DNA from: Candidatus Iainarchaeum sp.
GTDB taxonomy: Archaea; Iainarchaeota; Iainarchaeia; JAGGVJ01
NCBI GenBank assembly: GCA_021158055.1
Contig: JAGGVJ010000035.1
Span: 1 to 7,995, forward strand
DNA length: 7,995 nucleotides
Reading direction: 5' to 3'
The first letter of the stretch is position 1. Each line of letters starts with the position of its first letter. Below are positions 2,518 to 7,313 of the stretch, one piece after another. The position numbers and the translations under genes were made by a program. Below the pieces are notes generated by a model. The model worked only from the letters and a program-made list of their open reading frames with translations, did not search any database and had not been told where the DNA came from.

Positions 2518-2958
2518 TCAACTCCCTTCTTTTAATCCAAAAGGCTCAAAGTGCTCAATTGAATACCCGTCAAGCATTTCAACCATGCATTCAACATCTT
2601 TTTCTGTTCCGGAAAACATCAGCACTAAATCAACATACGCAAAAAAGCCATTGCTCAAAACACCGTAACTAATGCATATATCATCATCAAAAAACAAACC
2701 CTTGCCTTCCCCTAACAAAAGCATGTTTTCTTTTATATCGTCTTCTGGCAACTCAAATATTTCTTCAATAACCCCGTCATCTGTCTTTACAACCCTGAGT
2801 TTTTGGTCTCCCGCAAACTTAAAAAATGCCTCAACCAACTTTTTTTAAATTCCTTTTCTTCCGGTCAAAAACAAGTCTTTTGTTTCAACATAATGCGTAA
2901 ATCCAAACATTTCCTCAAAAGCAGTTATTTCTTCTCCGATAAACTTATCAAGTTCCAT
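2518..2958 (-). pseudogene. Unrecognised gene downstream of the AAA ATPase, interrupted by an in-frame TAA
   Basis: The ATG at 2958-2956 has a good ribosome site and opens a frame of 37 residues starting MELDKFIGEEITAFEEMFGF and ending TGRKGI. A TAA at 2847-2845 follows; the same frame then continues without another stop through KKLVEAFFKFAGDQKLRVVK to TGA at 2520-2518. Without the stop the protein would be 146 residues. The distal part (106 residues if begun at a TTG at 2838) has no good start of its own: GGA lies about 14 bases away. The sequence is acidic and soluble, mixed alpha/beta, with the segment FFDDDICISYGVLSNGFFAYVD in the middle and no membrane helix. I do not recognise a family. 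It sits 15 bases after the ATPase stop, so it is co-transcribed. A single base change (for example TAT or TAC to TAA) would explain the break; a consensus error is the other option. Confidence 0.6.
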
Positions 2959-2973: not shown

Positions 2974-4236
2974 TTAAACATTTTCCAGCATCCATTTCCA
3001 TACCGGCATGACTGTTATTTTTTTGTTATCCTTTTTTATTTCATATTCTTCATCAAGTGTTAAAATCAACCCTTCTTTTAGATCATGGCTGTTTAACGCT
3101 TCCAAAAGACCTGCAATTTCCCTGTCTTTATTTTCTTCCAGATAACAAGTTACCTGGATTGCTTTCACAATATTGATTCCCTGCCTGACCAGAAAATCAC
3201 ATTCTTTTTTCTGCCTATGGAAATATATCTCGCAATTTTTCCTTTTTAACTCCAAAAAAACCAAATTCTCAAGAACACGCCCTTTATCCTCACTTGCCCT
3301 GAACCCGATTACTCTTGCCATGCCTGAATCTATAAAATATGCTTTTTTGTTGTAATAAGCCTGTTTTTTCAACGAAACATCGTAGCGGGAAATCAAAAAA
3401 ACAAGGTAGCTGTTTTCAAGGTATTCAAAATATTCTTTTATTGTCGTGGCGCTTGTTAACCCTGTTAATTTTTTGATGGTATTAAAGCTTATCTCTTTGC
3501 CGATATTGCTTACCGCAAAATAAACGGTTTCTTTTATGGGTTTTTCTTTCGTAAGCCCGTACCTTGTGATTATGTCCCGGTATATTATGTTTTCATAGAC
3601 ATTTTTCAGGTATTCGTCTTTTTTCGTTTTTACAAACTCAGGAAACCCTCCTTCTTTCAGGTATTTATTGAACATGTGTTTAATCTTGCTTTTTTCCACA
3701 GACGTCAACTTATCCAATGCATCCGATGCATCCAAAAAATCAATCCCGTATTTTTCCATGTCAAGATATTCCCTGAACGAAAAAGGATACAGTTGAAATG
3801 AAATATTTCTTCCGGTCAGGTGAGTCCCAAGTTCCTTGGAAAGTATTGTTGCATTTGACCCCGTCACATAAATCTTTTTACCAGCATCATGAAGCCGTCT
3901 CACAAACCTTTCCCAGCCCGGAATATTCTGTATCTCGTCAAAAAGAAAAATATTTTTTTCGCCGAAAAGCTCTATTAAAAGCTCGTAAAGTTTCTGAAAA
4001 TCATTGACATCAAAATTAATGAACCGCTCATCATCAAAATTGACGTAATAAGAATCTCTTGTCTTGATCCTGTTCATCAAAGTTGACTTTCCGCAACGCC
4101 TGATTCCTGAAATTATAATTACAAAAGGAGATTTCCCGTATTCAGCTATTTTCTTCATAAGGCTTCGCTGAATACCGGACACATCTGTTTTTTTGTCTTG
4201 CTCCAAAAGAACCTCTTTCAATATGCTTTTTTCCAT
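2974..4236 (-). CDS. AAA_14/DUF4143-type ATPase
   Basis: The 420-residue protein (from ATG 4236) has the two-part build of the widespread archaeal/bacterial AAA_14-DUF4143 family. The ATPase half shows Walker A GIRRCGKST (44-52), Walker B FLFDEIQ (97-103), sensor motif TGSN (125-128) and the family signature around GRNISFQLYPFSFREYL (142-158). GGFPEF (196-201) leads to the DUF4143 half. That half has a winged-helix-like segment (about 249-280) and a C-terminal domain resembling the PD-(D/E)xK nuclease fold, with E323, E345-x-D347 and the IQV strand with Q361. The cellular role of the family is not settled; DNA binding is a reasonable guess. There is no signal peptide or membrane helix. An in-frame TTG six bases upstream is less likely as the start than this ATG, which sits at leaderless distance from its TATA box. 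It is the first gene of an operon with the interrupted gene at 2518-2958. Confidence 0.9.
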   Translation of the reverse strand: MEKSILKEVLLEQDKKTDVSGIQRSLMKKIAEYGKSPFVIIISGIRRCGKSTLMNRIKTRDSYYVNFDDERFINFDVNDFQKLYELLIELFGEKNIFLFDEIQNIPGWERFVRRLHDAGKKIYVTGSNATILSKELGTHLTGRNISFQLYPFSFREYLDMEKYGIDFLDASDALDKLTSVEKSKIKHMFNKYLKEGGFPEFVKTKKDEYLKNVYENIIYRDIITRYGLTKEKPIKETVYFAVSNIGKEISFNTIKKLTGLTSATTIKEYFEYLENSYLVFLISRYDVSLKKQAYYNKKAYFIDSGMARVIGFRASEDKGRVLENLVFLELKRKNCEIYFHRQKKECDFLVRQGINIVKAIQVTCYLEENKDREIAGLLEALNSHDLKEGLILTLDEEYEIKKDNKKITVMPVWKWMLENV

Positions 4237-4258
4237 AGACAAAATATAACCGATTTAG

Positions 4259-4268
4259 TTTATAAATA
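4259..4268 (-). promoter_or_regulatory. TATA box of the AAA ATPase operon
   Basis: The minus strand reads tatttataaa around a centre near 4263, about 27 bp before the ATG at 4236, with the purine-rich accaaat immediately upstream in the BRE position. The first palindrome of the repeat array overlaps that BRE. Confidence 0.65.
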
Positions 4269-4321
4269 TTTGGTTTGTCAGACCAAATAATGTAGTGTTT
4301 ATTTGGTTTACCAAACCAAAT
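4268..4321. promoter_or_regulatory. Pair of palindromic operator-like sites over the AAA ATPase promoter
   Basis: Two 21-bp palindromes share the outer arms atttggt and accaaat. Site 1 (4268-4288) has 10-bp arms with one mismatch around a central T. Site 2 (4301-4321) has perfect 9-bp arms, atttggttt and aaaccaaat, around acc. Their centres are 33 bp apart, near three helical turns. Site 1 touches the BRE/TATA of the ATPase gene, so a bound protein would be expected to block TFB/TBP. An additional arm pair, aataatgta (4286-4294) and tacattatt (4321-4329), extends the symmetry around site 2. Confidence 0.65.
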
Positions 4322-4374
4322 ACATTATTCCATTTTACCAAACCAAATACATTATTCCATTTTAACAAAACAAC
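4307..4374. repeat. 27-bp tandem direct repeats upstream of the AAA ATPase gene
   Basis: Two identical 27-bp units at 4307-4333 and 4334-4360 each begin tttaccaaaccaaat and end cattattccat. A third, decayed start follows at 4361-4374 (11 of 14 bases match). Each unit carries one half-site aaaccaaat of the adjacent palindromes. There are no spacers, so this is not a CRISPR array; tandem binding sites for the protein that uses the palindromes fit best. Confidence 0.75.
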
Positions 4375-4428
4375 AAACAAAACCAACAAGTAATCAAATC
4401 AGACCTTTATTACCTATATCTATCATTC

Positions 4429-4496
4429 TTTACAGGGTCATTTACAGAGTCATTCAGTATGTAACAACCTGTTTTCGACTGTTTTCTGTAAATGAC
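4429..4496. repeat. Tandem 12-bp repeat and 12-bp inverted repeat upstream of a short ORF
   Basis: tttacagggtca (4429-4440) and tttacagagtca (4441-4452) are adjacent direct repeats with one difference. gtcatttacaga (4437-4448) and tctgtaaatgac (4485-4496) form a perfect 12-bp inverted repeat with a 36-bp gap, in which ctgttttc also occurs twice (4469-4476 and 4479-4486). This block lies about 33 bp upstream of a TATA box and is distinct in sequence from the operator-like array at 4268-4374. A regulator site or hairpin is possible. Confidence 0.6.
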
Positions 4497-4528
4497 AGCA
4501 TCCGAAAACAAATTTCAAAGCAGAAGCG

Positions 4529-4536
4529 TTTATAAA
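4529..4536 (+). promoter_or_regulatory. TATA box of the 36-codon ORF
   Basis: tttataaa is centred about 27 bp before the ATG at 4559, the same leaderless geometry as the other genes here. Confidence 0.55.
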
Positions 4537-4558
4537 CGAGATTAAGCATAGCGTTGGT

Positions 4559-4669
4559 ATGAAAATAAAATCAAAGCACCGGCTCAACAACAAAAGCACA
4601 GCTATTGACCTCACGGCCGCGCAGTACAAAGAAGAAATCCCGGAGCCCGGAAGGAGTTCTACAGAGTGA
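4559..4669 (+). CDS. 36-residue ORF, possibly a truncated gene
   Basis: The ATG at 4559 opens a frame of 36 residues ending at TGA 4667-4669. It begins MKIKSKHRLNNK and continues STAIDLTAAQYKEEIPEP. The first dozen residues resemble the start of archaeal PUA-domain RNA-binding proteins, which often open with a similar basic MKIKSRH-like stretch, but nothing further of that domain is present. It could be a decayed gene retaining its promoter, or a real small basic protein. A well-placed TATA box supports transcription. It lies 36 bp ahead of the U32-like gene, which has its own weak TATA. Confidence 0.4.
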   Translation: MKIKSKHRLNNKSTAIDLTAAQYKEEIPEPGRSSTE

Positions 4670-4705: not shown

Positions 4706-5827
4706 ATGAACATTTCTGCGCCAACCAACTGGGATTTAAAATTAATCAATTTCACAGAAAAATTAAACAAAGAAAAATCCTGCAAAATTAAGACCGCTGA
4801 ATTTTACGGAAGCCTGAAAAAGAGCATAACCGGCAGTGCAAACGCCCCGGAATTATTAAAATCAAACATTTCCAAAGAACACGTGGAAAAATTCATTAAA
4901 GAATCAAAAAAGAAAGGCTTTGATTTCAATTATGTAATAAACAGCTCTTGTCTGGGAAACAAAGAATATCTAAAAAAAACCAGGAAAGAAATTCTTGACT
5001 ATTTAAACTGGATCGAGTCAACAGGGGCCTCTTATGTCACTGTTGCAAACCCGTTTATAATGGACCTGGTTAAAAACTCAACAAACCTTAAAATAACTCT
5101 TTCCTGCGTAACAAACCCAAAAAATATCAACAAGATGAAACTATTTGAAAATGAAGGTATTGACAGAATCGTCATATCAACTGACTTAAATCGAAATTTT
5201 TCGGCTTTGAAAAAAATAAAAGAAAACATAAACTGCAAACTGGAAATTTTAGCCAACGAATCGTGCTTGTTGGGTTGCCCTTACCGGGCCTACCATCACC
5301 TGATTTCATCACACGCATCCCAAAAAACAACTTCAGACCAAAACTTCGACTATTGCCTGATCAAATGCTCTCTGGCAAGATTAAACGACGCCTCCCAAAT
5401 AATAAAAGCGCCTTGGATAAGACCTGAAGATCTTGATTTTTACTCGGAATTCAATTTTGAATTTTTAAAACTGTCAGGGAGAGCAATGCCGACAAACTGG
5501 ATAAAAAACTGCTTGCAGGCATATTCCAAATTCAGATATGACGGGAACTTATACGACATCATAGATCAACGTGGAATGTATTCAAAAGAATTCTCTCGAC
5601 ATGCAAAGAGCGACAACTTTGGAAAATTGAATATTTTCGTCGACAACAATAAACTAAACAACTTTATTGAAAACATAAAAAAACTAAATGTTGATTGCGG
5701 ACAAGACTGCGGGAAATGCAATCATTGCAAAACAACAGCAAAAAAAGCAGTCAAAATCAATGAAAAAGACAAAAAAGAGCATATCAAAAACCTGGAAGCT
5801 GTCCTGAAAAAAGCCATGTTCACTTAA
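4706..5827 (+). CDS. U32 peptidase-like protein with two cysteine clusters (probable Fe-S protein)
   Basis: The 373-residue protein resembles the U32 family (collagenase-like peptidases, and relatives such as UbiU/UbiV that act in oxygen-independent hydroxylation). The first 180 residues look like the family's barrel, with alternating strands such as YVINS (76-80), ASYVTVANP (108-116) and IDRIVIST (152-159). The core signature is ILANESCLLGCPYRAYHHLI, where E185 is the family glutamate and C187-xxx-C191 pairs with C217-xxx-C221, four cysteines in the arrangement that binds a 4Fe-4S cluster in UbiU/V-type proteins. A second set, C331, C335, C338 and C341, sits near the C-terminus and could hold another metal site. 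There is no signal peptide. Protease activity has not been shown for most such members; a radical or hydroxylation-type role is possible. The neighbours do not reveal its substrate. Confidence 0.75.
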   Translation: MNISAPTNWDLKLINFTEKLNKEKSCKIKTAEFYGSLKKSITGSANAPELLKSNISKEHVEKFIKESKKKGFDFNYVINSSCLGNKEYLKKTRKEILDYLNWIESTGASYVTVANPFIMDLVKNSTNLKITLSCVTNPKNINKMKLFENEGIDRIVISTDLNRNFSALKKIKENINCKLEILANESCLLGCPYRAYHHLISSHASQKTTSDQNFDYCLIKCSLARLNDASQIIKAPWIRPEDLDFYSEFNFEFLKLSGRAMPTNWIKNCLQAYSKFRYDGNLYDIIDQRGMYSKEFSRHAKSDNFGKLNIFVDNNKLNNFIENIKKLNVDCGQDCGKCNHCKTTAKKAVKINEKDKKEHIKNLEAVLKKAMFT

Positions 5828-6114: not shown

Positions 6115-7313
6115 ATGGGAAAAATAAATCACTTTGCAAGAACAGGGATCATTCTAATCCTGATTATCAGTGTCTTTTTAGTCAGCGGTTGCGTACAAGA
6201 ACCCGGAGCCGATTAAAGAAAACACGAGTGTTCCGGAAACTGCGTTTTTATAGATAGCCTGTTTGCGGGAGACAAAACTGTTCTGGAATTGGATGTGTTC
6301 CAAAGTGAATACCTGCCGGAAACTGTCACCGACGCAATCGACGCAAATTTCAGTATAAGGACTGTAAAACCACTTGATTTTGATTGCGATGAATACGCAA
6401 GCATAGTGGATATGCACGCTGAAGTGAAGCCAGTGTATTTTAAAAATTCTGAGTGCGGTGTTTATCTGCCTTTTTTGGAAATTTCGTTGAATTTAATAGA
6501 AGACTCCAATTTTGACGTCAGTTTAATCACTTTCGAGGAAGAAAAATTAGGAGAAAAGCCGGATATTGATTTCGTGACCTGTGGATGTATAATCATTCAA
6601 TCCGGAGAGTACACCAGAAATTACCTTGGCGGCCTGAACAGGGGTTCGTGCAGTTGCTCTTATTGCACTGCAGAAGAAATGAACAATGCTGTTTACCCGG
6701 AAACCATGGAGCTATCTGTTGAACAACCCTACACTACAGATCCTGTTAAAACCAAAACAATTTAGTGCCTCTTTTCAGGTATGACGGCAAAACCGATGAA
6801 ATGATTATATTCAAGCGCATGAAGTTAAAAATATCTTATGATTCCCAGGTTCAGGCGAATGCAAAAGAATTGGTTCTTGATTTGTCTGAACTGCCGGAAA
6901 ATTCTGAGTTGACAGGAACGGGTTTTGAAACAAGCAGCATCGGTGAAGTTTTAAGCCAGTATGGGATTGCTGCATTTGCCGGCGATGAAAAAAACTTTTT
7001 TTCTTTAATGAATGCAGTATATGTCACAAAGACAACAGAAGAGGCAAAAAAACAGATGGGGATTGTTTTGGAAGAAAATGACACTATAACATCATCAGAA
7101 TATATTGATCTGGGTGATGAAGGAATGCTGATAGCCGGTGAAATGGAAAGCGAGGGAAACCCGCTCGATTATACGGCAATTGTATTCAGGGAAAAAAATG
7201 TTCTGGTTCAGTTGATGATAATTTCACCAAATCTTTCAAAAGCAAAAATCTCTGAAATGGTTGTGGATCTTGGGAAAAAAATTGAAGATAAGATATCCAA
7301 TTTTGTCTTGTAA
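6115..7313 (+). pseudogene. Secreted lipoprotein gene split across three frames
   Basis: The ATG at 6115 starts a clear lipoprotein signal peptide: basic residues K3 and R9, a hydrophobic core to residue 24, and the lipobox LVSGC with C26. The frame stops at TAA 6214. Between 6206 and 6250 a second frame reads a typical linker, EPIKENTSVPE. The first frame resumes from about 6250 with IDSLFAGDK and runs to TAG 6763-6765; a third frame continues from there with PLFRYDGKTDEM to TAA 7311-7313. One base fewer in CCC (6202-6204), one more T in 6245-6249, and one more A in 6754-6757 would give a single 399-residue protein. The middle has paired cysteines (CGC, and SCSCSYC at about 6647-6667). The last 140 residues resemble domains of archaeal extracellular lipoproteins with a pattern such as 'IDLGDEG... 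TAIVFREKNVLVQL'. It would be anchored outside the membrane; function unknown. No internal start codon has a good ribosome site, which argues against three separate genes. Confidence 0.65.

Follow-up and report, generated by a model that had tools for sequence, protein, structure and literature searches.

Paired dyads on the promoter of an archaeal AAA_14/DUF4143 (PDC-S01) ATPase gene as a likely private autoregulatory operator

Repeated DNA on the promoter of an archaeal ATPase gene raises the question of what such repeats do there, and of which protein reads them. The window analysed here is an entire contig of 7,995 bp from a draft archaeal genome of 1.15 Mb, and it carries the gene of an AAA_14/DUF4143 ATPase on the minus strand (2974-4236; 420 amino acids plus stop, ATG at 4234-4236). 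Two 21-bp palindromes, first pointed out in a preliminary description of this DNA, are indeed present at the promoter of this gene. The proximal dyad (4268-4288, no strand assigned; ATTTGGTTTGTCAGACCAAAT) is centred on 4278, 42 bp before the ATG, and the distal dyad (4301-4321, likewise without strand; ATTTGGTTTACCAAACCAAAT) on 4311; both are putative operator dyads, and the 33 bp from centre to centre is the commonest spacing in the ATPase family. The TATA box of the ATPase promoter (TTTATAAA, 4259-4266, minus strand) is directly abutted by the proximal dyad, which therefore covers the BRE position, as had been proposed. Judged by the distance from TATA box to ATG, the transcript is probably leaderless or nearly so, and since the dyads sit upstream of the TATA box, an RNA hairpin in a leader is an unlikely reading of them. 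The 140-bp upstream region reaches a pair score of 27.4, against a best of 20.8 among 5000 dinucleotide shuffles.

The element is shared with related genes. The same dyad occupies the same place before the five closest orthologs found, which come from a Woesearchaeota MAG (L107), a MAG filed as Thermoplasmatota (L108), two genomes of the window's own class (L201 and L202) and a Nanoarchaeota MAG (L251, whose ATPase is 64% identical to that of the window). Four of the five have a dyad pair, perfect to a varying degree, at a spacing of 33 bp; L202 has one clear dyad. Within the 1.15-Mb genome, pattern searches found the window-type dyad at one place only. Hence the repeats are not scattered away from the ATPase gene and the orthologous loci do carry the dyads, the two points on which the preliminary description had let its operator stand or fall. 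A scan for TTTGGTYTNNNARACCAAA that was blind to genes returned three places in 87 class genomes, all three at the start of genes of the window's ATPase subfamily (the phylum-level search for TTTGGTYTNNNARACCAAA took in the same 87 genomes). In DNA-only scans, 7 of 9 places with the TTCTATT-type dyad and 3 of 5 with the GTGATAC-type dyad lay beside ATPase genes; restriction of the site to its cognate gene holds for the window type and is less strict for these two. At one locus (L210, G074:C51, about 1100-1517), a TTCTATT-type dyad precedes an ATPase remnant without its N-terminal part.

The window locus also carries two exact 27-bp tandem units (4307-4333 and 4334-4360, no strand assigned), and a decayed remnant of the unit extends to about 4373. 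The units had been placed after the palindromes; their number and the decayed third are as described, but the first unit overlaps the distal dyad. Each unit contributes one half-site with a degenerate partner. A half-site common to all elements, also claimed, holds in part: the decayed remnant has no exact copy, and the right half of the first dyad (4268-4288) reads AGACCAAAT. The sequence AAACCAAAT has one extra copy at 3258, within the ATPase coding region. Of the two spacings earlier said to allow cooperative binding, 33 bp is conserved (23 bp elsewhere in the family), whereas the 27-bp array occurs in none of the orthologs examined (L107, L108, L201, L202 and L251), and 27 bp, a spacing peculiar to the window locus, was rejected as a functional register. 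The tandem is probably a local slippage duplication, a by-product beside the dyad pair, which is the conserved unit.

Several other features of the window may be recorded. Directly after the ATPase gene lies a 146-codon open reading frame (2518-2958, minus strand) with one in-frame TAA at codon 38. Between the dyads and a divergent gene whose product matches Peptidase_U32 (4706-5827, plus strand; 3.9e-13), a 12-bp inverted repeat (GTCATTTACAGA/TCTGTAAATGAC, 36 nt apart) occurs with a partial 12-bp tandem at 4437-4496. Two 22-bp tandem units, 91% alike, precede a metallo-beta-lactamase-fold gene (1478-1522), and a possibly frameshifted gene at 6115-6765 (plus strand) has a lipoprotein-like start (MGKINHFARTGIILILIISVFLVSGC), a stop near 6216 and then an open frame.

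How general is the paired arrangement? ATPase genes were taken from class relatives, from contigs across archaea and bacteria and from further paralogs (209 in total), with start codons set by rule. The pair score sought two similar 21-bp dyads with the spacing left free from 18 to 45 bp, 336 genes of the same loci served as controls, and a pair was called significant when spaced 22-24 or 32-34 bp and better than its own shuffles at p<=0.05. By this measure a significant upstream pair is present in 113 of the 209 ATPase genes and absent from 96. In the first set the share was 58% of 154 members, compared to 7.4% of the 336 neighbouring control genes; in a second set of 55 further members it was 44%, with 33 and 23 bp again foremost, and in a set made non-redundant at 45% identity it was 43%. 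Among the 154 members, the free-spacing search favoured 33 bp (56 members), then 23 bp (30) and 32 bp (14); the distribution in the controls was flat. Some members have a single dyad (L202 and the minus-strand gene of L052) or none. The conserved unit is two similar 21-bp dyads 33 bp apart, or 23 bp apart in other subfamilies, and it occurs in both archaea and bacteria. Dyad sequence differs among the ATPase paralogs of one genome and tracks the sequence of the ATPase. The earlier proposal of an operator at the ATPase promoter is supported, and moreover family-wide. Two paralogous loci of the window's genome show other layouts: at L051 (contig C12), upstream of the ATPase reading frame 3141-4632, a 34-bp unit is repeated 4.6 times on the promoter, a longer array of the same kind as that of the window, and at L047 (contig C1), just before the ATPase start, the dyads GTTACaccaaaacGTAAC and GTTACtttataacGTAAC flank the TATA box in a variant placement.

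The proximal dyad also keeps to the core promoter, adjoining TATA in archaea and the TAnnTTTG box in Bacteroidota. Of 49 archaeal members, 61% have a TATA-like element that starts at +9 to +13 bp from the centre of the proximal dyad, versus 17% of control genes at equal distance from the start codon; in Bacteroidota, the share with a TAnnTTTG box 12-19 bp from that centre is 63%, versus 5% of 54 controls. Any operon-internal genes among these controls would lower the control values. The dyads are found on the gene's own promoter and next to its core elements, where an autoregulatory operator belongs. So placed, they would block TBP/TFB or RNA polymerase, position by itself suggesting repression.

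The ATPase is recognized by Pfam as AAA_14 (1.1e-35) followed by DUF4143 (1.4e-18), and by the PADLOC model of PDC-S01 (1.7e-115), which makes it a member of that family, with defence as a candidate role. Its structure model (pLDDT 93) comprises an AAA+/STAND-type ATPase domain (aa 39-165; 3742-4122), a winged-helix domain (aa 229-302; 3331-3552) that is the candidate operator reader and includes a presumed recognition helix with its N-cap (aa 261-275; 3412-3456), and a PD-(D/E)XK/McrC-like C-terminal domain (aa 303-420; 2977-3330), all on the minus strand. The best PDB matches are 2qen (Z 17.2) and 2fna (Z 16.3), with several NLRs and CED-4 at Z 15-16, all matched by the N-terminal two thirds of the protein, which has the STAND NTPase arrangement of nucleotide-binding domain plus winged helix found in SSO1545, NLRs and CED-4. 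Foldseek matches the C-terminal domain to 6hz4 (McrBC, 1.9e-4) and Hjc (0.017), which assigns it the PD-(D/E)XK fold, and its motif reads E323, ExD345-347 and QxC/T/S361-363. Position 363 is C, T or S in 104 of 112 members and K in one. As 111 of the 112 family members lack the catalytic lysine of (D/E)XK, this domain may be an inactive or altered nuclease.

The ATPase itself is the likely reader of the dyads, given that the dyads are paralog-specific, that no neighbour gene recurs, that operator and protein distances are related and that protein and operator covary. The more two ATPases differ, the more their operators differ (Mantel r 0.43, p 0.001). This signal comes from the AAA+ and winged-helix segments and not from the C-terminal domain, although faster evolution of the C-terminus may play a part in that contrast. 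Residues 252, 261 and 264 covary with operator bases, in figures that phylogenetic dependence inflates: residue 252, just before the presumed recognition helix, with base -8 ranks first among 374 columns (z 6.4), residue 261 with base -5 heads the APC pairs (z 4.5), and residue 264 is Q with CT in 8/8, R with GT in 3/3 and N with C at -5 in 16/20, partly through shared ancestry. Residues 249-277 supply 11 of the top 40 pairs in one encoding, against an expectation of 3.3 (P 3e-4); under the other two encodings the enrichment is not significant (P 0.07 and 0.19). The covariation is noisy; plain mutual information gave a diffuse signal in which relatedness prevailed, and the APC and the identity-stratified forms point to the winged helix, yet list columns distant from it too. 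In STAND proteins such as NLRs, the winged helix is usually not a DNA reader. Across 14 loci, no neighbour gene recurs save other superfamily ATPases, so that a conserved neighbour was rejected as reader, and the conserved co-transcribed partner of a two-gene toxin-antitoxin operon was not found. The preliminary description had suggested either the ATPase or its interrupted partner as the acting protein; the structure model, covariation, operator/protein distance and the lack of a conserved neighbour indirectly favour the ATPase, acting via its winged helix.

The supposed partner, the reading frame at 2518-2958, begins on the ATPase strand, 15 bp beyond the stop codon of that gene, and might once have been a regulator or partner acting on the array. 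This is very improbable: neither a Pfam match nor a homolog in the other 86 class genomes was found, not even in the operator-sharing G070 and G079, and the persistence of the operator where the frame is absent disfavours it. A regulator encoded elsewhere in the host could instead read the dyads, as members of a regulon for defence or stress. Dedicated regulators typically have paired palindromes on the promoters they control, and reports on RptR (PMC12255303) and on CapK/CapS (PMC13373217) indicate that defence genes can have one of their own; however, the genome has no other dyad of the window type, paralogs that share a genome bear different dyads, no neighbour is conserved, and the dyad travels with the ATPase between archaeal lineages, in an architecture that spans archaea and bacteria. 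We regard such a host regulator as unlikely.

The protein has features that would suit another role for the dyads, that of a target for the ATPase in recombination, replication or DNA cleavage (an iteron, an integration or a cleavage site), as the first Foldseek match of the ATPase is Orc1/Cdc6 on origin DNA and its C-terminal domain resembles McrC and Hjc. We find a target site of this kind quite improbable, in view of the fixed offset between dyads and core promoter in archaea and bacteria alike, of the absence of a second copy flanking the gene, which a mobile element would need, and of the catalytic lysine missing from all but one of 112 members. The end of a transposon or insertion sequence was likewise rejected, with no inverted flanking copies and none scattered in the genome. 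Finally, chance, or a neutral repeat produced by slippage in AT-rich DNA between genes, is still the probable source of the 27-bp tandem, which is slippage-like and not conserved. For the dyads it is refuted, with 0 of 5000 shuffles reaching the pair score and with dyads conserved in orthologs and, at fixed spacing, throughout the family; as an account of the array it keeps next to no probability.

We consider it likely, on computational evidence, that the array is the private autoregulatory operator of the AAA_14/DUF4143 (PDC-S01) ATPase; each ATPase copy probably represses its own gene at a site read by it alone. What is directly observed is the dyad pair, its recurrence across the family, where it sits on the promoter, the fact that it is unique in the genome and its link with the sequence of the ATPase; from these we infer how repression, cooperativity and a trigger could fit together. 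Two ATPase dimers, or one higher oligomer, would probably sit on both dyads through the winged helix, the bound ATPases lying on nearly the same DNA face. TBP/TFB would be excluded in archaea and RNA polymerase in bacteria, and an immune-type STAND ATPase would be kept at a low level that could rise once the protein is engaged or degraded or its nucleotide state is changed.

It seems evenly balanced whether the whole NLR-like immune ATPase family of archaea and bacteria consists of such self-addressed genes, each with two dyads as a private operator that the winged helix of its product reads in a simple residue-to-base code. If it does, many paralogs could share one genome without cross-talk, their control could survive transfer between domains whose transcription machineries differ, and one regulatory architecture would serve archaeal and bacterial core promoters alike. 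PDC-S01 is reported to be among the commonest candidate defence genes in prokaryotes. A family-wide operator would provide the first regulatory handle on it, would mark its promoters in raw DNA, and would predict the residues responsible for DNA specificity.

Among known systems, the best structural matches are the archaeal STAND-type ATPases SSO1545 (2fna) and PAB2304 (2qen), which align over aa 15-312 (Z 16-17) and leave the C-terminal domain of the window ATPase model uncovered. To our knowledge, no operator has been described for either. The ATPase belongs, as said, to PDC-S01, the PADLOC phage-defence candidate built of AAA_14 and DUF4143, and no account of a PDC-S01 promoter or operator was found in the open-access literature (preprints outside scope). 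By domain order it can be likened to arCOG03166, an "AAA+ superfamily ATPase fused to HTH and RecB nuclease domains" (PMC4158269), whose order is identical; that paper regards it as a likely defence or plasmid gene, and a text search of it turned up nothing on autoregulation. Toxin-antitoxin operators that repress themselves (e.g. HigA, PMC6987408) are alike in having palindromes on their own promoter and a system-specific sequence. The window gene differs from these in being solitary, in having the ATPase as its presumed reader and in carrying two dyads in a 33- or, elsewhere in the family, 23-bp register. A further likeness is offered by IniR (PMC5760070), in which an SSO1545-like ATPase domain is joined to a DNA-binding domain that controls transcription; IniR differs in that it regulates iniBAC, and does so via a C-terminal SdiA-like domain together with a MalT-like sensor (PMC5760070).
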